DNA of 20,255 nt, from positions 1 through 20,255 of the IMG/VR virus record IMGVR_UViG_3300032333_000158; one strand, written 5' to 3'. This document shows, one piece after another, positions 485-14,101 of this stretch; positions within the stretch are counted from its first letter, which is position 1, and the number at the start of each line of letters is the position of its first letter. The notes beneath the pieces were generated by a model. That model worked only from the letters and a program-made list of their open reading frames with translations. It was not told the DNA's origin and did not search any database. The stretch is from a virus. Made by a program: the position numbers and the translations under genes.

Positions 485-2132
485 TTATGCAAAAAGTAAT
501 TTGCTAGACGAAAACAAAAGAGTTGGTAAGTGGATAAAGCTAGCAAGCAAAAGGTTTTTGGATGATTTAGAAAAATGCAAGAACAAAGAGGTTGATTATT
601 TTTTTAGCGAAGATCATGCGAATGATGTTTGTTATTTTGCATCTAACTTGCCGCACGCGGAGGGTAATTGGAGCACGCGAAATATCGTGCTCCATGAGTC
701 GCACATTTTTTTCTTAGTTCAACTGTTTGGATTTAGAAAACATGATTTAACCAGACGCTTCACAACAGCACTATTTGCGGTCGCTAGAAAGAACGCGAAG
801 AGCACGCTGGCTGCAATAATTTTGCTTTACTGCATGACGAGCGAAGGAGAGAATAGCCCGCAGGTTATTACAGCAGCAACGACGGGACAGCAAGCGCGTA
901 TCATATTTAACATTGCAAAACGTATGGTTGATATGACGCCCGATTTTAAATCGGCTTTCTCAGTTAAGACATTCGCTAACTCTATCGTGTGTTATCAAAA
1001 CGCAGGATCATTTAAGCCGATCAACTCTAAAGCAAGTACGCAGGACGGATTGAACCCAAGCTGTGTTGGCATCGATGAGATACACGCGCACAAAGATCAT
1101 TCGTTGATTAACGTTTTGAAGTCAGCGGCGGGGGCGAGAAACAATCCTCTGTTTTTATATACAACAACAGAGGGCTATGACAGCCCAGGGCCGTGGGGCG
1201 AGATGCGGAAGTTTGCAAAACAATTGCTAGAAGATACGGTGCAAGCTGAGCATTACTTAGTTTTGTACTATGCGATTGACGAAGAAGACAGCGAGTTTGA
1301 CGAAACCGCATGGGTCAAAGCTAATCCGCTGTCAGACGTTAACCCGCTTTTAATTAAAGAGATTGCGAAAGAGTCGCTCGAAGCAAAACAAATGCCTGGC
1401 AAGCGTGCGGAATTTTTAATCAAGCGTTGCAATAGACCGTCGTCGTCAGATAAATCAGAGATTGATTTGCAGAAATGGAACCAATGCGAAGGGGAAGTTA
1501 ATTTAGATTTTCTAAAAAATCATAGGTGCTATGGTGCGCTCGATCTATCTAGCACTCGTGATATGTCATCGTTCAGCTTGCTATGGTTAGTTGACGGAAA
1601 ATTTTATACAAAAGTTTGGTACTGGGTACCATCACATCAAGTTTGGCAAAGGACAGAACGCGGCTCGATAACATACGAAGCATGGGTAAATGCAGGTTTG
1701 ATTAAGCAGTTACCGGGAGAAATTATTAACTCAGAATATATTAAAAATGACTTACTCGATTTGATTAAATCATATAAAATACAAGCAATTGCTTTCGACC
1801 CGTGGAATGCGAACGACATTATAAATCACATGATAGATGCCGGAATAAATATGATTCAGTACATACAAGGTGGCAAGTCATATGCACCGGCATTCAATGC
1901 GCTTGAGAAGAGCTACTTATCAAAGTCATTAGTACACGATGGCAACCCCGTGCTTGCGTGGAATGCAAGCAACTTAATTGCTAGGGTTGACGCAAACATG
2001 AATCGTGCACCGGATCGTAAGCGAAGCACGGACAAGATCGACGGCATAGTATGTTTGCTTATGTGCTTCGGGCTTTGGGTTAGTAACGAACACACGTCTA
2101 TCTACGAGACAGAGGAATTATTAGTCTTATGA
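441..2132 (+). CDS. terL: Terminase large subunit
   Basis: ATPase-nuclease motor that pumps DNA into the prohead and cuts the concatemer. The protein is 563 residues from the ATG at 441, which has GGGGGAGG about 9 nt upstream. A GTG at 432 is in frame but overlaps that site. The ATPase half shows a Walker A variant ARKNAKST (residues about 115-122) and a Walker B strand CVGIDEIHAH (about 208-217) whose D-E pair fits Mg2+ binding and catalysis. The nuclease half carries the expected spaced acidic residues: ALDLSST (D near 368), AFDPWN (D near 453) and KIDGIV (D near 534). Length and motifs match the HK97/P27-type Terminase_1 family. The stop overlaps the portal start (ATGA). Confidence 0.95.
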   Translation: MSSQITHDFVSVAIDYAKSNLLDENKRVGKWIKLASKRFLDDLEKCKNKEVDYFFSEDHANDVCYFASNLPHAEGNWSTRNIVLHESHIFFLVQLFGFRKHDLTRRFTTALFAVARKNAKSTLAAIILLYCMTSEGENSPQVITAATTGQQARIIFNIAKRMVDMTPDFKSAFSVKTFANSIVCYQNAGSFKPINSKASTQDGLNPSCVGIDEIHAHKDHSLINVLKSAAGARNNPLFLYTTTEGYDSPGPWGEMRKFAKQLLEDTVQAEHYLVLYYAIDEEDSEFDETAWVKANPLSDVNPLLIKEIAKESLEAKQMPGKRAEFLIKRCNRPSSSDKSEIDLQKWNQCEGEVNLDFLKNHRCYGALDLSSTRDMSSFSLLWLVDGKFYTKVWYWVPSHQVWQRTERGSITYEAWVNAGLIKQLPGEIINSEYIKNDLLDLIKSYKIQAIAFDPWNANDIINHMIDAGINMIQYIQGGKSYAPAFNALEKSYLSKSLVHDGNPVLAWNASNLIARVDANMNRAPDRKRSTDKIDGIVCLLMCFGLWVSNEHTSIYETEELLVL

Positions 2133-3394
2133 AAATCATGGATAGAATTTTTGGGAGAAACGAAGCCAGAGAGCCGGAGACTAGAAGTCTAGAAAATCCA
2201 TCTGTTGACACAGTGCGTTCGCTTGTTGGAGACATTGGATACGGCAACAACAATTCAATAAGAGTTAATCAAAATAACGCGCTCACTTCTTCGGTTGTGT
2301 ATACCTGCATTCGAGTGCTAGCCGAGGAATTTGCAGCGCTACCGTTCAATGTTTACAAAAGAATTGATGGCGGTGGAAAGATTGTTGATAGAACGCATAA
2401 GCTTTATAAGACGTTGCATATATCGCCGAACATTTATTCGACAAGTTATGTTTTCCGTGAGTTGATGATTGTTCAATCTTGCATATTTAATAAAGCTGTC
2501 GCGTTGATTTATCGAGACGGGTCTAGAACTTCTCTGATTAATATCCATCCCGAGTTAGTAAAGATTGAATACATCGATGGGCAGAAAAAGTTTTTGATAA
2601 AAAACCAAAGCGCAGGTTATGACGTATTCGATGACAGCGAAATAATTTATATACCTGGGCTATCTCTCGACGGTAATAAGACTATCTCACCAGTTTTAGA
2701 GGCCGGGCGCAAAGCGATATCTCTCGCTTTGGAAACGCAGGAATATACAAGCACGTTCTTCTCGAATGGGGCGCGTCCAAGCGGTTTGCTTACAACTAAG
2801 ACACCTCTTAGCGCCGAAGGTAGATTGCGTATTAAGGAAGCATGGGAGAAAGCGCAGGGCGGCTTAAGCAATACTTATAAAACCGCAGTACTCGATAGCG
2901 AGTTAAGCTATCAATCATTAAGCACTGATGCGGATAAGTCACAGCTAATTGAAACCAGAAGGTTTCAGGTTGAGGACATTTGCCGGTTCTTTCGAATCCC
3001 TCCGGTGTTTGCTGGCGACTATAGCCGCTCAACTTATGCGAACGTTGAGCAGCAAGATTTGCACTTTTCTAAACATTGCATACTTCCGCTTACTGTCAAG
3101 TTCGAACAAGAATTTAATAGAAAATTATTTAACGATGACGAAGAATCTTTTTGCGAATTTAACTTAGACGGTTTGCAGCGCGGGGATTTTGAAACAAGAA
3201 TAAATGGCTTTGCGCGTGGCATACAAACTTCTATATTTACGCCGAACGAAGTTCGCTCAATGATGAACATGCCGCCAATGGAAGGCGGAGATAAGCTTTA
3301 CATTCAAGGCGCAACTGTTGAACTTACAGATACAACAAAACAACAAGATAATCCAAATGGCGGAGTAAGCGCAGATGAGCAACAAAATAGCTAG
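2129..3394 (+). CDS. Portal protein, HK97 family
   Basis: Forms the dodecameric ring at one head vertex through which DNA enters and leaves, and to which the connector and tail attach. The protein is 421 residues, normal for this family. Family-like segments are SSVVYTCIRVLAEEFAALPF (residues about 54-73), RDGSRTSLINIHPELVKIEY, SPVLEAGRKAISLALETQEY, FFSNGARPSGLL, and FRIPPVFAGDYSRSTYANVE with QQDLHF after it; the last set is very characteristic of HK97-type portals. The ATG at 2129 overlaps the terL stop by 4 nt. A second in-frame ATG at 2138 (MDRIFGR) is possible, and neither start has a strong Shine-Dalgarno. The 3' end overlaps the protease gene by 20 nt. Confidence 0.95.
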   Translation: MKIMDRIFGRNEAREPETRSLENPSVDTVRSLVGDIGYGNNNSIRVNQNNALTSSVVYTCIRVLAEEFAALPFNVYKRIDGGGKIVDRTHKLYKTLHISPNIYSTSYVFRELMIVQSCIFNKAVALIYRDGSRTSLINIHPELVKIEYIDGQKKFLIKNQSAGYDVFDDSEIIYIPGLSLDGNKTISPVLEAGRKAISLALETQEYTSTFFSNGARPSGLLTTKTPLSAEGRLRIKEAWEKAQGGLSNTYKTAVLDSELSYQSLSTDADKSQLIETRRFQVEDICRFFRIPPVFAGDYSRSTYANVEQQDLHFSKHCILPLTVKFEQEFNRKLFNDDEESFCEFNLDGLQRGDFETRINGFARGIQTSIFTPNEVRSMMNMPPMEGGDKLYIQGATVELTDTTKQQDNPNGGVSADEQQNS

Positions 3395-4010
3395 TGATTT
3401 AGAGCGTAGGTTTTTTTGCGCTGAAGATTTGGCGATAGAAACAAGAGAGGCTGACAGCAATAAAACTGTATTGCGCGGCCATGCCGCTGTATTCAATCAA
3501 CTGTCTGTTGACCTTGGAGGCTTCCGCGAACAAATTGCGCCGGGAGCTTTTCTAGATGCTATCAATCAAGATGACATTCGCGCACTATTCAATCATGACC
3601 CTAACATGATTCTCGGCCGCAAGCAGTCCGGCACATTAAGATTGCAGGAAGACTCTCATGGCCTGCTGGTTGAGCTAGACATCCCTGATACAAATGCAGG
3701 ACGCGATTTGATTACCAGTATTAAACGCGGTGACGTTAATCAAATGTCCTTCGGCTTTAGAGTCAAGCCAGGCGGTCAGGACTGGGCGAAGGATGAAGAA
3801 GGAAGGATGATAAGAACGCTTAAGAAAGTTGGTTTGTTGGATGTATCGCCAGTTACTTTTCCAGCTTATCCGCAAACTGACATTGCTGTACGTGAGATGA
3901 GAAGTTACTTAGATGCAATTAATCAAACTAATGTAGAAGACACACATAAAAATAAAAATAAAATGCTCTTAAAGCTGAAGCTTGCGGGGCGTGTTTTGTC
4001 CACGGTCTAA
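3375..4010 (+). CDS. Prohead protease, HK97 family (U35/S78)
   Basis: Maturation serine protease that digests the scaffold part of the capsid protein inside the prohead. The protein is 211 residues, starting at an ATG with GGAG 9 nt upstream inside the portal gene. Family motifs are VLRGHAAVFNQLS (about 32-44), REQIAPGAFLDAI (about 51-63), FNHDPNMILGR with the putative catalytic His at 74, and VNQMSFGFRV with the putative nucleophile Ser at 125. VGLLDVSPVTFPAYPQT is also typical. The last about 25 residues (lysine/asparagine-rich, then LLKLKLAG) lie beyond the conserved fold, and their DNA is A-rich. The stop codon lies in the loop of a terminator-like hairpin. Confidence 0.93.
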   Translation: MSNKIASDLERRFFCAEDLAIETREADSNKTVLRGHAAVFNQLSVDLGGFREQIAPGAFLDAINQDDIRALFNHDPNMILGRKQSGTLRLQEDSHGLLVELDIPDTNAGRDLITSIKRGDVNQMSFGFRVKPGGQDWAKDEEGRMIRTLKKVGLLDVSPVTFPAYPQTDIAVREMRSYLDAINQTNVEDTHKNKNKMLLKLKLAGRVLSTV

Positions 4011-4044: not shown

Positions 4045-5316
4045 ATGAATAACAGCAACATTAAAAAACTGCAGGACGAGCACGCACGCCTTGTAACAGA
4101 AGCGCGTAGTTTGCTCGAGGGTGATGTATCAAAAGAAAACGAAGAGCGTTTTGATAAGTTGATGGCTGATGCTGATGGCATCGAAGCTCGGGTTAAGCGT
4201 GAGCAACGAGCAGAAGCAGCAGAAAAAGCGATGGTCGGCAAGATTCATCAAGCTGCTGAGAAGAAAGGCATTACTCGTTCAGAAGCAGAAGGGCGAGAAG
4301 TTGAGTATAGAGATGCGTTTAGGAACTGGGCTAAGTTCGGCGAAGCTGGATTAAATGACGAATCACGAAGCATTCTTTCCTCACGTCAAGTAAATATTGA
4401 TGGTTCTGAGTTACGTGCGCAGTCAGTATCGGGCGGTTCGCCTGTTGGCATTTACGGCGGTTACACTGTGCCACCCGAAATGGTTATGAACATCGAGGAA
4501 GCATTAAAGTCATATAGTGGCGTGATGCAAATCGCTGATGAGTTCACGACTACAAGCGGTGTTGATTTGCCATGGCCGAACACCAATGACACATCGAACA
4601 AAGGTGCGATCCTCGGTGAAAATCAGCCAGTCGATGAACAAGACATTACGTTCTCGACAACCACATTCAAATCATTTTTGTACTACTCGAAATTGATTCG
4701 ATGCAGTTATCAATTGTTGCAAGATTCGGGATTCAATTTAGAAGATCACATTACACGTGTTGCTGCTGAGCGAATCGGCCGCAAACTAAATGAAGACTTC
4801 ACCACCGGCGTTGGTGTAACCACACCGCTTGGCGTCGTTAGTGGCTCTACGCTTGGCTATACGGGATTAACTCAACTCTCTATAACTTATGATGCGCTAG
4901 TACAACTAGAACACTCTGTAGACCCAGCTTATCGCTCAAGCCCAAAAGCTGCCTGGATGTTTAATGATCAAACATTAAAAGCTCTTCGCTTGATGAAAGA
5001 CTCAACAGGCCGTCCCCTTATCTGGGGACAAGACGGAAACTTAGGGCAAGGCGCTGTACCTTCGCTTTTTGGTAAGCCTTATTATATCAATCAAGATATG
5101 GCTTCACTTGGCGCAGCAAGCAAAAGCGTTTTGTTTGGTGATTTCAGTAAGTACAAAATCCGCAAGGCTCGCGAGTATGTAATGGTTCGCCTCAATGAGC
5201 GTTACGCAGACCGCTTGCAAGTTGGTTGGTTTATGTATTGCCGATTTGATGGACGTTTAATCGATGCCGGTACGCATCCATTAAAGTACTTACAACAAGC
5301 AGCATCTTCGCCTTAA
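4045..5316 (+). CDS. Major capsid protein, HK97 fold
   Basis: Main shell protein, 423 residues, starting at an ATG with AGAAGGAAA upstream. Residues about 5-75 are charged and strongly helical (EHARLVTEARSLLEG, ERFDKLMADADGIEARVKRE), which fits the scaffold-like delta domain removed by the upstream protease. The shell domain appears to begin around 125-135, near SVSGGSPVG; I infer cleavage there but cannot see the exact site. Family signatures are GGYTVPPEMVMNIEEAL, AILGENQPVDEQDITFS, YYSKLIRCSYQLLQDS, AAERIGRKLNEDFTTG, AAWMFNDQTLKALRLMKD, GKPYYINQDMASLG and LFGDFSKYKIRKAREYVMVR. The gene is flanked by terminator-like hairpins on both sides, unlike its densely overlapping neighbours. Confidence 0.96.
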   Translation: MNNSNIKKLQDEHARLVTEARSLLEGDVSKENEERFDKLMADADGIEARVKREQRAEAAEKAMVGKIHQAAEKKGITRSEAEGREVEYRDAFRNWAKFGEAGLNDESRSILSSRQVNIDGSELRAQSVSGGSPVGIYGGYTVPPEMVMNIEEALKSYSGVMQIADEFTTTSGVDLPWPNTNDTSNKGAILGENQPVDEQDITFSTTTFKSFLYYSKLIRCSYQLLQDSGFNLEDHITRVAAERIGRKLNEDFTTGVGVTTPLGVVSGSTLGYTGLTQLSITYDALVQLEHSVDPAYRSSPKAAWMFNDQTLKALRLMKDSTGRPLIWGQDGNLGQGAVPSLFGKPYYINQDMASLGAASKSVLFGDFSKYKIRKAREYVMVRLNERYADRLQVGWFMYCRFDGRLIDAGTHPLKYLQQAASSP

Positions 5317-5380: not shown

Positions 5381-5623
5381 ATGAAAATACTAAGATTTAC
5401 TGAATCAGTAGCGGGCTTAGATTTTAGCTACAACATCGGGCAGGTCGCTTTAGTCAAAGATTCTTTAGCCAAAGATTTCTTGCGCGGCAAATGTGCAATT
5501 CAGGTTGAGCAAGACGGAGAGGTAGAAGAAGCAACAACAAATAGTTTGCCCGGCTCTGAGGTGTCGGCTTTAGTAAATACGAAAAGTAAGCGTAGATATA
5601 CTAAAAAAACCTTGGCGCAATGA
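5381..5623 (+). CDS. Small head-region protein, first copy (upstream part of a possible frameshift fusion)
   Basis: Protein of 80 residues with a clear TAGGAG 8 nt before its ATG. I do not recognise a named family. It begins MKILRFTESVAGLDFSYNIG, then a segment ending KDSLAKDFLRGKCAIQVEQ, and then an acidic to basic linker ending SKRRYTKKTLAQ. It resembles the protein at 6221 (same MKI start, a G...V....A.D..R...A pattern, same length), so the two are probably paralogues. Small proteins of this type are commonly encoded just after the capsid gene. Five codons before its stop it crosses a run of seven A (5603-5609), where another frame carrying a GT42-like domain begins. It may therefore exist both alone and as the N-terminus of a fusion of about 280 residues. 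Confidence 0.75.
   Translation: MKILRFTESVAGLDFSYNIGQVALVKDSLAKDFLRGKCAIQVEQDGEVEEATTNSLPGSEVSALVNTKSKRRYTKKTLAQ
5603..5609 (+). promoter_or_regulatory. Candidate slippage site (A7) joining 5381 to the GT42-like frame
   Basis: The sequence reads ACT AAA AAA ACC in the frame of the upstream gene. A +1 shift of Lys-tRNA from 5606-5608 to 5607-5609 keeps perfect AAA pairing and continues CCT TGG CGC into the enzyme frame; a -2 shift would give one more Lys. Equivalently, six or nine A in the DNA or mRNA would fuse the frames. No stimulatory structure was identified. This is inferred from frame geometry and the position of conserved motifs. Confidence 0.45.
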
Positions 5624-5654
5624 TATCGTTTGTTGCATCGCTACCGGCCCATCT

Positions 5655-6224
5655 TTGACCGTTGAAGATGTTGAGTACGTTAAAAACAAATGCAAGATAG
5701 TTGCAGTAAATAACGCTTACAAAATAGCGCCGTTTGCCGATGCGCTGGTGGCTTTAGATACGGACTGGTGGGCTACGAATTGGAAAGACGAAGAGCTAAG
5801 AAATTTTAAAGGTTTAAAGTTTGCAACTGACCCTGATGTGCGTGACAGATTTGGCGCGCACTGGGTGCATGGCGTGATAAGGAATGGTTTATCGACTGAC
5901 TGGGATAATGTAGCCGTGGGCGCCGACTCAGGTTACTATGCGCTTGCAATAGCTGTGCTTATGGGGAGCACAAAAATAATCATGCTGGGCTATGACATGG
6001 GACATGCAAGTGACGGTAAAACTCATTTCTTTGGCGATCATCCTAGCAACTTACGTAACTGTAGTCCGTATGACTTATTTATTGAAAGGTATGAAACGAT
6101 ACCTACTTGGTGCGGTGAAAACGGTGTGCAGATTTTTAACAGCACGAGGCAAACAAGATTAAATTGTTTTAATCGTGCAAACGTTAGAGATGCTTATTCA
6201 AATTTAATAGGTAACTTCAAATGA
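5655..6224 (+). CDS. GT42/DUF115-like glycosyltransferase domain, first copy
   Basis: The part downstream of the first possible start (TTG at 5655) is 189 residues, but the true coding frame is open from 5577. Upstream codons read KKPWRNDIVCCIATGPSL, and ATGPSL is the nucleotide-sugar-binding loop expected at the N-terminus of GT42 sialyltransferase-like and DUF115/MptE-like proteins. Residues counted from the TTG show KIVAVNNAYKIAPFADALVALDTDWW (14-39, given in pieces: VNNAY, ALDTDWW), then DSGYYALAIAVLMGSTKIIM (91-110) and LGYDMG, matching the SG..A..IA...G...I.L.G.D pattern of GT42 enzymes, and HFFGDHP. The TTG has no Shine-Dalgarno and would cut off GPSL, so a fusion to the 5381 protein is more likely. 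The donor and acceptor sugars are unknown. Confidence 0.72.
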   Translation: MTVEDVEYVKNKCKIVAVNNAYKIAPFADALVALDTDWWATNWKDEELRNFKGLKFATDPDVRDRFGAHWVHGVIRNGLSTDWDNVAVGADSGYYALAIAVLMGSTKIIMLGYDMGHASDGKTHFFGDHPSNLRNCSPYDLFIERYETIPTWCGENGVQIFNSTRQTRLNCFNRANVRDAYSNLIGNFK

Positions 6225-6478
6225 AAATAAAAATCATTCGTGATTTCGTAAGCGCTGAGACTGGCGGTAGAAATATTAAAGCGGGCGAAACTTTAGAAGT
6301 CAGCAACGATTATGCAAATGATCTTGTTAGATTCGGCATTGCCGTTGTGTTTAAGCAAGAAAAAAAAACGGCAGAAGTAAAGCCAGAGTTCTTGGCAAGT
6401 GGGAAAAAGCCGCGATCATCGGCACGGGGCACAGTGCGAAAAATGCTAGGACTGAAGAGCTTAGAAGAGAAGGAATAA
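6221..6478 (+). CDS. Small head-region protein, second copy (upstream part of a possible frameshift fusion)
   Basis: Protein of 85 residues; its ATG overlaps the previous stop (ATGA). The first about 47 residues (MKIKIIRDFVSAETG, NIKAGETLEVSNDYANDLVR, FGIAVVFKQ) look like a compact beta-rich domain and resemble the start of the protein at 5381. At codons 47-49 the gene runs through nine A (6360-6368). Beyond this the zero frame continues for 36 basic, low-complexity residues, while the -1 frame carries the conserved start of a GT42-like domain. The tail after the A run may therefore only be what is made when no frameshift occurs. I cannot name a family. A role as a head-associated or carrier domain is inferred from position only. 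Confidence 0.72.
   Translation: MKIKIIRDFVSAETGGRNIKAGETLEVSNDYANDLVRFGIAVVFKQEKKTAEVKPEFLASGKKPRSSARGTVRKMLGLKSLEEKE
6361..6367 (+). promoter_or_regulatory. Candidate -1 frameshift site A_AAA_AAA (within A9)
   Basis: In the frame of the 6221 gene the codons are GAA AAA AAA ACG. The heptamer A_AAA_AAA fits the X_XXY_YYZ rule for -1 slippage, and a -1 shift continues AAC GGC AGA straight into the enzyme frame that encodes IIGTGHSA. The full A run is 6360-6368, so transcriptional slippage to ten A would do the same. A weak stem GCCAG/TTGGC (6382-6386 with 6392-6396) lies about 14 nt downstream. This is inferred from frame geometry. Confidence 0.55.
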
Positions 6479-6507
6479 AAATAGTTTGCGTTAATGATGC
6501 TGTTAAT

Positions 6508-6960
6508 TTGTTTGATAGCTATGATTTGCACTATGCCGCTGATTTAGAATATTGGGTTAAATATTTCAGCGTACACAACATTGATAATTTAAGTAAGCGC
6601 TGGACTTGCAACGATATAGCCGCACACGTGTATGGCATTAATCATGTTTCTGTTGTTCAGCAAGATGTATTCTCAAAACAAAATAATTGTGTTTCGTCAG
6701 GCGGTAATAGTGCGTTCCAAGCTTTTAATCTGTGTTTACATTTCGGCGTAAAAGATTTTTATTTGTTTGGCTTAGATATGGGTGGCGGTCATTTTTTTGG
6801 TGAGCGCTCAGGTGATTTTAAATCAGCGAATAAAACAGATTACGAAAGATGGGCCATTAATTTCAATTTTGCAATCGAGCAATATCAAGAAGAATTAAAA
6901 GTATATAACTGTTCTGCGCCATCATTACTCAGGGGGATGAAGTGCGAGCGTTTTGTTTAA
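6508..6960 (+). CDS. GT42/DUF115-like glycosyltransferase domain, second copy
   Basis: The first possible start (TTG 6508) gives 150 residues, but the frame is open from 6355, and the upstream codons encode GKWEKAAIIGTGHSA and then GIKIVCVNDAV, the conserved N-terminal half of the fold. No ATG, GTG or TTG exists in that extension and the TTG has no Shine-Dalgarno. Downstream are YAADLEYW (residues about 9-16), SSGGNSAFQAFNLCLHFGVK (about 63-82), DFYLFGLDMGGGHFFGE, and a C-terminal VYNCSAPSLLRGM. The SG..A...A...G.K..YLFG.DM core and the late N.S...L element match GT42 sialyltransferase-like proteins and mirror the copy at 5655. It is probably made as a fusion of about 246 residues with the 6221 protein. 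Substrates cannot be inferred. Confidence 0.72.
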   Translation: MFDSYDLHYAADLEYWVKYFSVHNIDNLSKRWTCNDIAAHVYGINHVSVVQQDVFSKQNNCVSSGGNSAFQAFNLCLHFGVKDFYLFGLDMGGGHFFGERSGDFKSANKTDYERWAINFNFAIEQYQEELKVYNCSAPSLLRGMKCERFV

Positions 6961-7718
6961 TAAAAGAAGAACCGCATTACAGAAGAGAAGCCTTTGTTTC
7001 AGGTTTGCAAAAACTTGGTTACAAAGTTTTCTTTGATGTCGATTTGCGCGACATTAGAAAAGATGACTTGCTTGTGATCTGGAATAGATACGGACACTTT
7101 GACGAATTCGCAAAGCTCTATGAAGCAAAAGGCTGCAAAGTCATAGTTGTTGAGAACGGATATCTAGGCGTTCAATACAATGATAAAGTTTGGTACTCGA
7201 TAGCATTAAGTCACCATAATGGCTATGGAAAATATAGATTAATTGCGGATAGATTTTTTGATCAAAATCTAAAATTTTCAGAATGGAAAACAACGGGAAG
7301 AGAAGTCGTTGTTTTAGCCCAGCGTGGCATCGGTGAGAAATCAATCGCAAGCCCTGACAACTGGGAATACTACGCTAAAGATTTGATCGAACATAAGACT
7401 GGCTTACCTGTTCGCATTCGACAGCACCCAGGGCTTACTTACGCGATCGATCTCGCTGAGGATTTGAAGAACGCAAAGTTTGCGGTTACGTGGGGGTCAG
7501 GTGCAGGAATAAAAGCCATCACGCTCGGCGTTCCCGTAGTGCACGGTTTGCAAAACTGGATAGCGAAAGATTCATCCCTGCATATCTCAGAATTTGATAT
7601 GAAAAAATTATTCAGAGGCGATAGAACAAAAACATTCTGCAATGTTTTTTCAGCTATGTGGAATCTGCAAGAAATATACGATGCGCGGCCATTCGTGGAG
7701 CTGTTGAATGAAAACTGA
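6942..7718 (+). CDS. KpsS/KpsC-like capsule-type glycosyltransferase, first copy
   Basis: Protein of 258 residues starting at GTG 6942, with AGGGGGA at 6931-6937; it overlaps the previous gene by 19 nt. The N-terminus (EAFVSGLQKLGYKVFFD, LLVIWNRYGHFDEFA, KVIVVENGYLG) and the C-terminal half (VLAQRGIGEKSIASP, RIRQHPGL near 158-165, FAVTWGSGAGIKAITLGVPV at about 180-199) have the GT-B-like layout of the KpsS/KpsC capsule polysaccharide transferases and related CDP-glycerol/Kdo-type enzymes. These add sugars at the cytoplasmic side during surface-polysaccharide synthesis. The specific sugar is unknown. It is paralogous in layout to the gene at 9089 and opens the first of two transferase-methyltransferase-glycosyltransferase trios. 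Confidence 0.72.
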   Translation: MRAFCLIKEEPHYRREAFVSGLQKLGYKVFFDVDLRDIRKDDLLVIWNRYGHFDEFAKLYEAKGCKVIVVENGYLGVQYNDKVWYSIALSHHNGYGKYRLIADRFFDQNLKFSEWKTTGREVVVLAQRGIGEKSIASPDNWEYYAKDLIEHKTGLPVRIRQHPGLTYAIDLAEDLKNAKFAVTWGSGAGIKAITLGVPVVHGLQNWIAKDSSLHISEFDMKKLFRGDRTKTFCNVFSAMWNLQEIYDARPFVELLNEN

Positions 7719-8253
7719 TTGTGATGATTTTTATAATAGTTTCGTGAAGCCAAAGCCAGGTCAAGCCTTGGTTGTTGGCTCTAAAATTTATCCAGGACGC
7801 ACAGACCAGCGCAAGAAGTTCGAGCAGTGTATCGGCTTAGACATGCTGGAAGGTGACGGGGTTGATCTGGTTTGGGATTTAGAAAACCCGCTACCGAAGC
7901 AATACTATAATTTCTCGCATGTTGAATGCTGTTCTGTTTTAGAGCATGCGCGCCGTCCATGGTTAGTTGCGAAGAACATAGAGAATTCTTTACGCAACGG
8001 CGGAACGTTGTTTGTTTCTGTGCCGTTCGTTTGGCGAATTCATGCTTACCCAAATGATTATTTCAGATTCACACCTGAAGGACTGAAAAGTCTTTTTGAT
8101 AAAATAACATTTTCAGAAATACGGATGATCGTCAAAGGTAAGATGTTTAATTACCTTGATGCGCCATCATTCACAATAGACGATGACGGCAAAGAAGCTG
8201 TTACTTTTGAACGATGCTTAGTGATGGGGTTCGGTAAAAAATGCGGATCCTAA
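7708..8253 (+). CDS. Class I SAM-dependent methyltransferase, first copy
   Basis: Protein of 181 residues; the ATG at 7708 follows GGAG and overlaps the previous stop. Rossmann-type methyltransferase elements are in order: a degenerate motif I strand (ALVVGSKIYPG, residues 20-30), motif II IGLDMLEGDGVDLVWDLENP (42-61, D45), SVLEHARRPW (76-85), LRNGGTLFVSVPFVWRIHA (95-113) and NDYFRFTPEGLKSLF (116-130). This is the Methyltransf_11 pattern seen in sugar or small-molecule O-methyltransferases of polysaccharide clusters. Motif I lacks the usual G.G.G, which is notable but occurs in this subgroup. Flanked by two transferases, it most likely methylates a sugar; a DNA or protein target is less likely because no such recognition domain is present. 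Confidence 0.8.
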   Translation: MKTDCDDFYNSFVKPKPGQALVVGSKIYPGRTDQRKKFEQCIGLDMLEGDGVDLVWDLENPLPKQYYNFSHVECCSVLEHARRPWLVAKNIENSLRNGGTLFVSVPFVWRIHAYPNDYFRFTPEGLKSLFDKITFSEIRMIVKGKMFNYLDAPSFTIDDDGKEAVTFERCLVMGFGKKCGS

Positions 8254-9092
8254 TTACCGGCAAACCCAACCAAGGCTCGTGGAAAATAAGAGCCGAACAG
8301 CTAGGCGGAGCAATATCGGCGAAGGTTATACCCGATGCGAGAATTGAAGACATCAGAAAATGCGATGTCGTCATCGTAGTTAAAAACTTCACAGTAGGTT
8401 TGCTAGATAGAATACGCTCGCTTAAAAAGCCAATCGTTTGGGATTGCGTGGACTTCTGGCCGCAGCCGCTTGGCAATACTTGGGATCGTGAGAAGTGCTT
8501 GCAGTTTTTACGCAAGAAACTATCAGGCGTTGGCCCGCAGATGGCTATAGCTGCAACAAAGCAGATGGCCGACGACATGAAAGAATGCAGGCTACCAATT
8601 AAGATTGGTTATCTAAAACACCACGCAAGACCAGACCAAAGAAAGAACGAGATACGCGACCAAATCAAAGTGATAGGTTATGAGGGCTCGCCTCGTTATT
8701 TAGATTTTTGGCGCGAGCACATCGATGACATATGCGAGCAGGCTAAATACAGATTCGTGATTAACCCAGATCATTTGGCTGATGTCGATGTGTGCCTTGC
8801 ATTGCGCGGCGGTGAGTGGGACGGATACGCAACGAGGAATTGGAAATCTAACGTTAAGCTCGCCAACATGCATGACACTGGAACGCCAGGAATACTTGGG
8901 CCTGAGGCTGGCTACTTAGAAAACCGCACGGGCGCAGAGTACCTAGTATCTGACCCAAGGCATTTAAAGTATGCGATGAAGTGGCTAGAACCAAGGGAAG
9001 TCAGACAAGAAATTAGCGAAAGGTTTTTATCTGTTGATACAAGCTTGGAATCTGTAGCAAAAGAATATTTAAAAATACTGAGCAGCTTATGA
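8241..9092 (+). CDS. GT-B-like glycosyltransferase
   Basis: Protein of 283 residues from ATG 8241, overlapping the methyltransferase by 13 nt. It starts MRILITGKPNQGSWKIRAEQ, a first strand and loop as in GT-B enzymes, followed by CDVVIVVKNF, KKPIVWDCVDFWPQPLG (62-78) and IAATKQMADDM (103-113). The second half has IKVIGYEGSPRYLDFW (142-157), VDVCLALRGG, then NVKLANMHDTGTPGILGPEA (204-223), equivalent to the donor-binding K..N....G.P.I.......E region of GT4-like enzymes. It probably transfers a sugar from an activated donor; donor and acceptor are unknown. The stop overlaps the next start (ATGA), so it is cotranslated with its neighbours. Confidence 0.65.
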   Translation: MRILITGKPNQGSWKIRAEQLGGAISAKVIPDARIEDIRKCDVVIVVKNFTVGLLDRIRSLKKPIVWDCVDFWPQPLGNTWDREKCLQFLRKKLSGVGPQMAIAATKQMADDMKECRLPIKIGYLKHHARPDQRKNEIRDQIKVIGYEGSPRYLDFWREHIDDICEQAKYRFVINPDHLADVDVCLALRGGEWDGYATRNWKSNVKLANMHDTGTPGILGPEAGYLENRTGAEYLVSDPRHLKYAMKWLEPREVRQEISERFLSVDTSLESVAKEYLKILSSL

Positions 9093-9943
9093 TTGAAGTC
9101 GAGATGTTAATCAACGAGAACACTAGAAAGCGCGGCGATATCATGCTTCGCTCGCTTGCATGTTCTGCGCAAGAGAACGGCATAACGTGCAAGATAACTA
9201 AAAAGTATTCGAGCAAGTTAAAAAATATAATGCTCTGGGGTGTCGGTGATCACGATAGAAATTTAATTTTCTTAGATCACATAAAAAACGGCGGGGATGC
9301 GTTTTGCTGGGATATGGGCTACTGGCATTCTCGCTCGGGCTCAGATGTTAGCAACGCTTATAATAGATTCTCAAAAAATCATTTCCATCCGCAAGCTTTA
9401 TTGCTCGATTTAGAACTAAAGGAAGGCTACAAAGACAGATTCGACTTGCATGATTCGCTAGTTTTTAGAGATGTCTATGATGAGAATGGCCCGATAATTT
9501 TGGTTGGGAATGGGCCTAAAACGTGCGCGCACTTGGGAATAAACAGGGGTTCTTGGGAGGCCAAAGCCTTGGCGAGAATCGTAGAAAAGTTTGGCAAAAA
9601 AAAGAAAATAATATTTAGGCCGAAACCTAACAACGACTACGAAAGTTTAGACGGAGTGACCGTTGATCAGCTTAGCTCTATTGATGATCTGATGTGCGGC
9701 GCATCGCTTGTTGTATGCCGCCACTCTAACGTTGCGGTGGATGCAATCAGAAACGGTATAGCGGTTAGCTGTGAAGATGGCGCGGCCAATGCTGTATATA
9801 ATGACGACTTATCAAACAAGCCGATAAGTCTTGATATTGCAAAAGATTTTCTAGCCAAGCTTGCGTGGTTTAATTACTCTCAGGTACAGGGTGCAACAGG
9901 GGTTTTTTGGAAGTTCGCTATAGAGCATGGGGTGATTTCATGA
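9089..9943 (+). CDS. KpsS-like capsule-type glycosyltransferase, second copy
   Basis: Protein of 284 residues from ATG 9089, overlapping the previous stop. Elements are NIMLWGVGDHDRN (46-58), AFCWDMGYWHSRSG (71-84), IILVGNGPKT (136-145), KKIIFRPKP (172-180) and CRHSNVAVDAIRNGIAVSCE (210-229). The R.KP followed by C.HSN...DAI..GI.V matches the donor-binding half of KpsS/capsule-type GT-B enzymes and parallels QHPGL and TWGSGAG...ITLGVPV in the protein at 6942, though the two have diverged strongly. It contains eight A at 9596-9603 (coding KKKK) with its reading frame intact, a useful control for the A-run frameshifts at 5603 and 6360. It opens the second trio. Confidence 0.65.
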   Translation: MIEVEMLINENTRKRGDIMLRSLACSAQENGITCKITKKYSSKLKNIMLWGVGDHDRNLIFLDHIKNGGDAFCWDMGYWHSRSGSDVSNAYNRFSKNHFHPQALLLDLELKEGYKDRFDLHDSLVFRDVYDENGPIILVGNGPKTCAHLGINRGSWEAKALARIVEKFGKKKKIIFRPKPNNDYESLDGVTVDQLSSIDDLMCGASLVVCRHSNVAVDAIRNGIAVSCEDGAANAVYNDDLSNKPISLDIAKDFLAKLAWFNYSQVQGATGVFWKFAIEHGVIS

Positions 9944-10431
9944 GACTAAATTTAGGATGCGGGCGCAAGGTTTTAGATGGCTGGTTCAACATAGATATTT
10001 CAAGATCGGATTTGGCGACTAGAGACCCAGAATTATTTTGCGATTTAAAGAAATTAAAACTTGCTGATAACGTCGCAGACGAAGCAATGGCGATACATGT
10101 CATCGAACACTTTTACGAATGGGAAGTTATTCCGCTGCTAAAAGAGTGGCTAAGAGTTTTAAAGCCTGGCGCAATGCTAGCGATTGAGTGCCCCGACGTC
10201 ATGAAGTCAGCTAAAAATTTAGTTGACGGTACGGCGTTTCAAGAAAGCATGTGGGGCTTGTACGGCGACCCGCGTCACTGCGATGAATACATGGTGCATC
10301 GTTGGGGCTGGACACCTGAGACGCTCACAGAGTATTTGAAAGACGCAGGATTTAGAAAAATAAAATCTTGTGATCCGCAATGGCATGGCAAGCGAGTGCA
10401 CAGGGATATGAGGCTGGAGGCTTACAAATGA
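9940..10431 (+). CDS. Class I SAM-dependent methyltransferase, second copy
   Basis: Protein of 163 residues. I choose ATG 9940, which overlaps the previous stop (ATGA) and is preceded by GGGGTGA; an upstream in-frame ATG at 9907 would only add 11 residues unlike the family. Motif I RLNLGCGRK (2-10), WFNIDIS (15-21), AIHVIEHF (51-58), EWLRVLKPGAMLAIECPD (69-86), and a C-terminal WTPETLTEYLKDAGFRKIK segment give a complete small Methyltransf_11-type enzyme. Methylation of a glycan or its precursor is inferred from the neighbours. It is not obviously closer to the methyltransferase at 7708 than two random members of the superfamily would be, so it may be an independent acquisition. Confidence 0.85.
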   Translation: MRLNLGCGRKVLDGWFNIDISRSDLATRDPELFCDLKKLKLADNVADEAMAIHVIEHFYEWEVIPLLKEWLRVLKPGAMLAIECPDVMKSAKNLVDGTAFQESMWGLYGDPRHCDEYMVHRWGWTPETLTEYLKDAGFRKIKSCDPQWHGKRVHRDMRLEAYK

Positions 10432-11129
10432 AAATCTATATCGGCTACGATGAAAGAGAAAAAGAGGCGTATTCAGTAGCTAGAAAATCACTCGAAAAAT
10501 ACTCAAGCGCTCGGCATGAAGTTGTAGCGCTTGATGAGCAAAACTTAAGAAAGAGCGGATTACTATCTAGGAATGTAGATAAGCGTGATAAAAAATACGA
10601 TTTAATTAGCAACGCTTATTGCTCGACCGACTTTGCAAACTCGAGGTTTCTGACTCCCATACTTGCACAAAGCGGTTGGGCTTTATTTGTAGACTGTGAT
10701 GTTCTATTCCTCGATGACGTTAGCAAAATAATACCTGACGCTTTGGCTAATAATCCGGGCCACGCTAAAGCTGTCTACGTCGTGAAGCATGACCACGTGC
10801 CGGATAAGCTGCAAAAGATGGATAACCAAATGCAAGTGAAATACTCGCGCAAGAATTGGTCTAGCGTGATGCTATTTAACTGCGATCATAAAGCTAATAA
10901 ACGACTATCATTGAGAGACGTCAACGAAAGAAGCGGCCTTGAGTTGCACCAATTCTATTGGCTCTCAGATGATGAAATCGGCGGCTTGCCGCATGGCTGG
11001 AATTGGCTTGTCGATGTACATAAAAAACCTGAAAATTTGAAGCTGGCACACTATACTTTAGGCGGCCCCTGGTTTGAGGGCTACGAATCAGAGCATAACA
11101 AGTTGTGGTTGGATCACAAAAATGAATGA
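10428..11129 (+). CDS. GT-A glycosyltransferase, GT8-like
   Basis: Protein of 233 residues from ATG 10428, with GGAGG at 10416-10420; it overlaps the previous stop. The start MKIYIGYDEREKEAYSVARK is the nucleotide-binding strand seen in GT8-like enzymes. STDFANSRFLTPILAQSGWA (66-85) precedes LFVDCDVLFLDD (86-97), whose D.D (89-91) should bind the divalent metal and sugar nucleotide. YSRKNWSSVMLFNCDH (139-154) and LAHYTLGGPWFEGY (206-219) complete the fold, the latter in the place of the HxxGxxKPW element of GT8. This protein type is common in phage and host polysaccharide loci. It is the last cassette gene, and its 3' end overlaps the connector gene by 8 nt. Confidence 0.85.
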   Translation: MKIYIGYDEREKEAYSVARKSLEKYSSARHEVVALDEQNLRKSGLLSRNVDKRDKKYDLISNAYCSTDFANSRFLTPILAQSGWALFVDCDVLFLDDVSKIIPDALANNPGHAKAVYVVKHDHVPDKLQKMDNQMQVKYSRKNWSSVMLFNCDHKANKRLSLRDVNERSGLELHQFYWLSDDEIGGLPHGWNWLVDVHKKPENLKLAHYTLGGPWFEGYESEHNKLWLDHKNE

Positions 11130-13376: not shown

Positions 13377-13736
13377 ATGAGCAATGTAATTAGTAGAGTT
13401 AGTCTTTTAAACTTTTGCAAAAAGCCGCCAGAGCTTCGAGCTATTAACGCGCTCGGCGGCGCAGAGGTTTACATCAAGCACATGTCAACGAGTGAGAAAT
13501 ACGATTGGGAATTATCAGTGCTAGACGAAGAAGGGAAAGTTAGCAAAGATTTATTGCCTAATTCTTCTTTCACGCTGATTTCAAAGTGTGTGCTAGATGA
13601 GAACCATGTTCCTTTTTTTGCAACTACAAAAGAGGTGGCAGACATCGACGCAGATTTAGCAATGGAACTGCGCGAAGTATGCCAAGAAGTAAATGCAGTA
13701 AAACCTAAGGCTACTAGCGAAGCGGGAAAGTCTTAA
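13377..13736 (+). CDS. Tail assembly chaperone, gpG-like
   Basis: Protein of 119 residues with a strong GGGGGAA before its ATG. NCKK-type start (SLLNFCKKPPELRAINALGG), EVYIKHMSTSEKYDWELSVL, VLDENHVPFF and DADLAMELREVCQEVNA fit the short tail assembly chaperone that keeps the tape measure protein soluble while the tube polymerises on it. Near its end it crosses GCG GGA AAG TCT TAA; G_GGA_AAG is the same heptamer used by lambda G/GT. A minority of ribosomes should shift to the -1 frame and make the longer GT form of about 241 residues. Confidence 0.85.
   Translation: MSNVISRVSLLNFCKKPPELRAINALGGAEVYIKHMSTSEKYDWELSVLDEEGKVSKDLLPNSSFTLISKCVLDENHVPFFATTKEVADIDADLAMELREVCQEVNAVKPKATSEAGKS
13724..13730 (+). 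promoter_or_regulatory. Programmed -1 frameshift site GGGAAAG (G/GT type)
   Basis: GGGAAAG read as G_GGA_AAG in the gpG frame matches the X_XXY_YYZ rule and is identical to the lambda G/GT slippery sequence. A -1 shift reads on as GTC TTA ATC GAT into the frame that runs to 14101. The -1 frame has a stop at 13715-13717 just before, and no ATG, GTG or TTG between there and 13781, so frameshifting is the natural route. Confidence 0.9.
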
Positions 13737-14101
13737 TCGATAACCCTAAACTGCACTTCTTATTTAAGTTAGCGCTTGGCTTGGGAATGAGTGTAGAAAG
13801 AGTTGTCAAAGAAATTTCGGCGGACGAGATCTTATACTGGGAAGCTATGTACATGATTGACCCATGGGACATAGAGCGGATCGAGCGTAGCATTGCCACG
13901 CTCACCGCAATAACTTATAACTTGCAGCTTACAAAAGAAACAAAAGACAAGGCGGTTAAAGTAAGTGATTACATGCCGTGGCTAAAAATCAGGGAAGCAT
14001 CAAAAGATAAGCAAGAAGATTTGTCACCGACATTTACGTCAAGACTGCATCAGATGAGAAAAGTTTTTAAAGCGCGACAAGAGCAAGACAAGGAATTGTA
14101 A
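13730..14101 (+). CDS. Frameshift extension of the tail chaperone, gpT-like
   Basis: The T part of a GT fusion, listed from the shift point; it has no start of its own with a Shine-Dalgarno (the first TTG is at 13781). Translation after the shift begins VLIDNPKLHFLFKLALGLGM, followed by SVERVVKEISADEILYWEAM and YMIDPWDIERIERSIATLTA, the S.....ISA.E...W.A.....PW....ID pattern common to T-type domains. The T domain binds the tape measure protein and recruits tube subunits. The full fusion starts at 13377. Three bases separate this stop from the tape measure ATG. Confidence 0.85.
   Translation, partial: VLIDNPKLHFLFKLALGLGMSVERVVKEISADEILYWEAMYMIDPWDIERIERSIATLTAITYNLQLTKETKDKAVKVSDYMPWLKIREASKDKQEDLSPTFTSRLHQMRKVFKARQEQDKEL

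Follow-up and report, generated by a model that had tools for sequence, protein, structure and literature searches.

How does an enzyme-like domain come to be translated when no ATG, GTG or TTG precedes it in its reading frame? The question is raised twice in a 20,255-base virus record (the window, meaning the whole stretch of DNA analysed here), which has the usual head-to-tail gene order of terminase, portal, protease and capsid. Between the capsid gene (4045-5316) and the head-tail adaptor (about 11128) the window carries sugar-related and unassigned genes, and immediately 3′ of the capsid gene are two tandem pairs, in each of which a small gene precedes a domain matching PHROG 4603 ('alpha-2,3-sialyltransferase').

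Two tandem cassettes follow the capsid gene

Copy 1 comprises a small gene at 5381-5623 on the plus strand (small-domain HMM E 4.6e-7) and a Maf/GT42-like domain frame at 5577-6224 (plus strand; PHROG 4603, E 4.3e-36) that has no start codon 5′ of the domain. Copy 2 comprises a small capsid-adjacent gene of 85 aa at 6221-6478 (plus strand, 0 frame), which matches the PHROG 2616 profile over residues 1-63 (E 4.9e-10) and is predicted to supply the N-terminal domain of a fusion, and an overlapping frame at 6355-6960 (plus strand) that encodes a linker and a Maf/GT42-like domain (about 6394-6957). From the cassettes to the head-tail adaptor (6942-11129) run genes with short overlaps and of unclear family, including methyltransferase-like genes at 7708 and 9940; this cluster may be an island for sugar or surface modification.

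A slippery A run lies at the copy 2 junction

The domain frame of copy 2 opens after a TAA stop at 6352-6354 (plus strand), which sets the 5′ limit of the frame change, and it lies in -1 relative to the small gene, in agreement with the frames given in a preliminary description of this DNA. From 6355 it encodes ARKKNGRSKARVLGKWEKAAIIGTGHSAKNART..., and ATG, GTG and TTG are absent from it 5′ of 6508. Position 1 of the PHROG 4603 profile aligns at residue 22 of the -1 frame (about 6418; E 9.5e-19), so the true domain start lies upstream of 6508 and initiation at 6508 would cost the first part of the fold. The earlier claims that this frame is open back to 6355 without a start codon, and that a conserved N-terminal part of the fold is encoded ahead of 6508, are both upheld by these results.

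The overlap contains a slippery motif of the type X_XXZ_ZZN/Z_ZZN in the right phase. The run at 6360-6368 (plus strand) is exactly nine A, flanked by G 6359 and C 6369, and the 0 frame of the gene starting at ATG 6221 reads CAA GAA AAA AAA ACG, which puts the heptamer A_AAA_AAA in phase at 6361-6367, as had been described; the same run is also a possible tract for transcriptional slippage. Alternative in-phase A_AAG tetramers occur at 6379-6382 (plus strand), a shift-prone motif by the ranking given in part of PMC4066793, and at 6406-6409 (plus strand; GGG AAA AAG CCG), where the position corresponds to the slip site of the relative L237. A shift at either would give the same product length as a shift at the A9 run, that is, 49 + 197 = 246 predicted residues, the size of fusion anticipated earlier. 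A single A9 run is unremarkable, 1.06 being expected in the window by chance under a dinucleotide model; its placement at the junction, with a frame relation common to dozens of relatives, is not chance. The A9 run is ranked as the best, though not the sole, candidate slip site in the window.

The first copy was said to be shifted as well. Its domain does lie in a shifted frame with no start codon, and a seven-A run (5603-5609, plus strand) stands at the junction, but the relation to the small gene is +1 (or -2), not -1. A +1 relation and an A7 run like those of copy 1 recur at locus L226, but with TTG codons upstream. For copy 1, either a +1/-2 shift takes place, or transcriptional slippage, or the recorded length of the A7 run is wrong. 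Tail chaperone genes, in which phages use -1, -2 or +1 shifts for one kind of fusion according to part of PMC5009743, are a precedent for varied shift directions such as those possible for the two window copies.

The domain has a Maf/GT42-like fold

A model of the copy 2 domain (pLDDT 90.6) matched best to the fold of the Maf flagellin glycosyltransferase 5mu5 (Z 16.2, 168 residues, 2.6 Å), followed by Cst-I/Cst-II (VIA-align Z 12.3, 172 residues aligned) and an archaeal HPPK (Z 11.3). The Maf/GT42 fold assignment comes from this second aligner; Foldseek returned for copy 2 a single PDB match below E 0.001, the archaeal HPPK, and returned none below that value for the natural fusion at L101 described below, the N-terminal small domain of which was modelled with low confidence. 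At the sequence level, the domain profile matched Cst-II with E 0.0017 over 70 positions, and the Pfam family MptE-like (PF01973; Maf, MptE) scored 17.6 and 27.3 bits, under its gathering cut-off of 34.6. Because Maf and Cst match by fold, Cst-II reaches E 0.0017 and MptE-like stays below its cut-off, 'Maf/GT42-like' is used here as a statement about the modelled fold, and the domain is taken to be Maf-like without being filed as an MptE-like member. The earlier term 'GT42-like' stands as a fold label (Z 12.3 to Cst-II/Cst-I), although the closest fold is that of Maf (Z 16.2). Maf and the GT42 enzymes Cst-I and Cst-II share this fold with the phage domain at about 16% identity, and differ from it in that the phage domain is fused to a small capsid-adjacent protein.

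Maf enzymes place nonulosonic acids on flagellin Ser/Thr (a passage of PMC11339370), so that the phage domain can reasonably be guessed to transfer a sugar to proteins of the virion or the host. Copy 2 is among the most divergent members of the family and keeps most of the other family invariants; with GHS in place of the GPS motif, its putative activity may be altered. The standalone homologue in PAJU2 carries a structural-protein annotation, and this would fit a role in the virion.

The -1 relation is conserved among relatives

Three IMG/VR profile scans yielded 240 further loci, and a scan of a genome collection yielded four relatives only. Relatives were classified twice, first as 89 representatives at 85% identity and then, with the help of a small-domain profile, as a larger set of 155 non-redundant representatives; the two classifications agree on the -1 relation. 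In the larger set the domain lacks an ATG, GTG or TTG start in 60 of 155 representatives; where the overlapping small gene of such a no-start locus was recognised by its profile, the domain lies in -1 in 42 cases and in +1 in one, which is window copy 1. In the smaller set -1 was found in 31 of 33 no-start cases, among which L161 is doubtful, and L090, beyond these 31, was -1 too on inspection. All such counts come from related sequences, and nominal P values attached to them overstate independence.

The proposed search for natural single-frame fusions in related phages found one at L101 (2827-3570), which begins with ATG and encodes 247 aa, compared with 246 predicted in the window. The L101 gene sits in a similar cluster that runs on to a head-tail connector. 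In Pseudomonas phage D3, orf6.5 directly follows the capsid gene and the domain lies in its -1 frame; the annotated start of orf7 (L006, 1834-2552) falls about 90 nt past that of the domain, leaving out the GPSL motif. Among the D3-like loci L062-L092, almost every one has its domain in -1 of the small gene and no start codon; in the D3 subgroup a GTG or TTG of the shifted frame could act as a start. The nearest named phage with the layout, by terminase, is Psp6 (49%), also with the domain in -1 and no start. At the cassette position phages phi2 and TC7 (terminase 53%) carry two small genes, with no enzyme domain before the adaptor; the small protein thus exists alone, and the window cassettes occupy phi2's two-gene position. 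In phi2 (L173, 3717-4085) these standalone small genes are the tandem gp34 and gp35. The domain has its own start codon in many relatives in other gene contexts, and also in P1 PmgO, P7 and PAJU2 ORF010; P1 PmgO and PAJU2 ORF010, with starts of their own, show the N-terminal motif to be part of the domain.

Several further loci were noted in passing. No gene is annotated at the domain position in phi1 (L008). A second virus with two tandem cassettes, both -1, is represented by L158 (about 2047-3540). The loci L095/L096, L098 and L114 form a separate subgroup with longer small proteins (about 110-130 aa) and the domain in -1, at G_GGA_AAG or G_GGC_CCC.

Slip sites in relatives follow a known ranking

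In the aligned D3-like sites a CCC triplet is invariant (29/29) and lies 38 to 47 nt 5′ of the GPS codons, in the contexts C_CCA_AAG, C_CCT_TTG, A_AAC_CCT, A_AAC_CCC, T_TTC_CCT and bare C_CCT/C_CCC. The 0 frame of D3, phi1 and 5399 reads ATC CCA AAG, giving C_CCA_AAG just 5′ of the domain. At L072, L081, L156 and L076 a -1-frame stop immediately precedes the slip codon, which places the frame change there or just after. In the E. coli ranking given in part of PMC4066793, C_CCA_AAG is the best heptamer, C_CCU and C_CCC are shift-prone, and C_CCA and C_CCG are weak; at the relatives' sites C_CCA was seen only within C_CCA_AAG and C_CCG was never the slip codon, and the choice of motifs agrees with the measured ranking. 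Across 58 no-start loci, 30 X_XXZ_ZZN heptamers of the shift region have the correct phase versus 10 and 9 in the other two (nominal P 6e-5, which overstates independence because the loci are related). Lower-GC loci use A runs as the window does, namely L179 (A9; A_AAA_AAA and A_AAA_AAG), L237 and L239 (both A_AAA_AAG), in each case nearer the domain than the window's A9; L237 has six A only, and its -1 frame opens just 15 nt 5′ of the domain. No clear slip motif was seen in the last 75 nt of the no-start loci Psp6, L193, L217, L234, L251 and L257.

A downstream stem and a basic-tailed unshifted product

The D3-like group has a stem of about 10 bp with the consensus GGCCGCTGGC / GCCAGCGGCC, starting about 5-8 nt past the slip codon. 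Its cells are paired in 85.9% of cases, versus at most 55.5% when the stem is slid, and four pairs show two-sided (compensatory) changes; it beats every shuffle, and also every slid version in pairing and covariation score. Codon-preserving randomisation gave a modest mean z of -0.82 over 30 loci, with uneven values that are near zero in several C_CCA_AAG loci. On this evidence the stem is real but uneven. In the window, the RNA downstream of the junction has no significant structure or unusual stability (z about 0). Downstream structure is not required at every -1 frameshift site.

The 0 frame of the relatives stays open for a median of 96 nt beyond the domain start. Under synonymous randomisation of the -1 frame, the geometric mean probability of the 0 frame being kept open was 0.22 per locus (42 loci), and the tail that it encodes is basic, with a mean net charge of +4.5 over the last 20 residues versus +2.1 expected. 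A 0 frame kept open beyond the expectation from synonymous codon choice, and ending in a basic tail, suggests that both products, the basic-tailed unshifted protein and the shifted fusion, are under selection and probably have a role.

Probable programmed frameshifting and its alternatives

The reading that best accounts for copy 2, with a probability of about 0.85, is that programmed -1 ribosomal frameshifting makes a putative minor, enzyme-tailed form of the capsid-adjacent protein. The small gene and the enzyme-like domain would then be one recoded gene. Most ribosomes would stop at the small gene's own stop codon and release the short protein, basic-tailed in most relatives, and a fraction would slip by one base in the 5′ direction at a stretch of identical bases just ahead of the domain (A_AAA_AAA in the window) to make the 246-residue fusion of the small N-terminal domain and the Maf/GT42-like domain. 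Support at the sequence level comes from the gene overlap, the -1 relation, the missing start, the conserved slip motifs, the D3-like stem and the one in-frame homologue; comparison strongly favours the programmed -1 shift proposed in the preliminary description, dozens of no-start -1 relatives having varied but shift-prone sites. Ribosomal slippage in the window and its efficiency are inferred, as are a location of the fusion on or in the head, brought about by the small domain, and the transfer of a nonulosonic-acid-type sugar by the enzyme-like domain, which might instead be a structural descendant of an enzyme of this kind.

A tract of nine A also lies within the length range prone to transcriptional slippage, by which the polymerase would add an A (or drop two) and the edited mRNA would encode the fusion, with slippage in the opposite direction at the copy 1 A7. 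Such slippage could explain -1 and +1 alike; an A run stands at both tandem junctions, and L179 has an A9 too and L226 an A7 with a +1 relation. The short mixed heptamers of most relatives (C_CCA_AAG, C_CCT_TTG, C_CCY) are, however, not expected to slip a polymerase, the relatives' motifs are in the phase needed for ribosomal slippage, and L237 manages with six A only, all of which makes a transcriptional origin unlikely. A sequencing or assembly error is a more mundane rival: the run might truly be ten or seven A, and the gene a plain in-frame fusion like L101, a form that does exist. The homopolymer is known from one metagenomic record, and searches for close relatives found none by DNA in the phage collection, nor in IMG/VR with the domain taken alone or the capsid protein as the query. 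An error here is nonetheless improbable, as dozens of independent records show the -1 relation again, finished phage genomes with no homopolymer at the site among them, and as fourteen other A/T homopolymers of at least seven bases lie in intact window genes, the two small-gene/domain junctions being the only places with breaks.

Were the domain translated separately, from a non-standard start codon (for example, ATC 6415 or 6418) and by coupling to the gene upstream, the slippery motifs, the -1 stops directly 5′ of them and the downstream stem would be left without a role, and initiation at ATC would truncate the first strand. The gene overlap does resemble that of translational coupling and the D3 subgroup has GTG or TTG upstream of the domain, but ATG, GTG and TTG are all missing in 60/155 representatives, and we regard a separate start as very improbable. 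That the domain is a decaying pseudogene is hardly credible: copy 2 is a highly divergent member that has lost the P of GPS, yet its frame is open for 606 nt, its model reaches pLDDT 90.6, most other invariants are kept and relatives whose motifs are canonical retain the split.

Beyond programmed -1 frameshifting at copy 2, the comparison points tentatively, at a little under even odds, to a widespread recoding system of tailed phages in which a capsid-adjacent protein is made in basic-tailed and glycosyltransferase-like forms, the two tandem copies of the window shifting in opposite directions (-1 and +1/-2). If true, this would fix the proportion of enzyme-bearing copies on or in the head, which could glycosylate virion or host components, and the attachment of the enzyme to the phage head at a set, sub-stoichiometric ratio is a testable claim. 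It would also mean that a class of phage glycosyltransferase-like proteins, D3 orf7 included, is missing or truncated in databases, because the GPSL motif lies in the part that gene callers overlook, and it would add a conserved frameshift in the head module to the known G-GT shift of the tail module. The loci would form a natural series of slip sites, from strong heptamers to a bare C_CCY with a stem, useful for the study of bacterial recoding.

Relation to known recoding systems

Within the freely accessible literature searched, no paper links a phage sialyltransferase-like gene to frameshifting. Main-text passages of PMC5009743, PMC3711429, PMC4066793 and PMC10885494 (PRFect) do not mention a frameshift between the small gene and the domain. 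In the literature searched the recoding system appears undescribed: the mechanism, -1 programmed ribosomal frameshifting, is known, and the gene pair, its place and its product are new.

Homologous domains (PHROG 4603) are found in D3 orf6.5/orf7, P1 PmgO, P7 HdmB and PAJU2 ORF010. D3 has the same -1 layout with C_CCA_AAG, but is annotated as two genes with orf7 starting after GPSL, whereas the P1, P7 and PAJU2 genes each have their own start codon. Head-protein extensions (the coat proteins of A2 and T3, and Listeria A118, A500 and PSA, as covered in part of PMC5009743) likewise add a minor recoded C-terminal domain, and PSA shifts on a proline codon; as presented there, it is the major coat protein that is lengthened, often by Ig-like domains, whereas here a separate small protein carries a glycosyltransferase-like domain. 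The -1 sites A_AAA_AAG and C_CCA_AAG of IS3/IS911-type elements use the same motifs with a stimulatory downstream structure (part of PMC4066793), but are in transposase genes with unrelated products.

The gpG-gpGT tail assembly chaperone is, like the cassette, a phage morphogenesis gene with a conserved -1 shift, varied heptamers and a C-terminal addition. The cassette differs in sitting between the capsid and the head-tail connector, in producing a small protein and an enzyme-like domain, and, in D3-like phages, in using C_CCY/C_CCA_AAG with a 10-bp stem. The window also carries a tail chaperone pair of its own (13377-14101), with G_GGA_AAG at 13724-13730 and the T part in -1 (KVLIDNPKLHFLFKLALG...), an ordinary G-GT frameshift.
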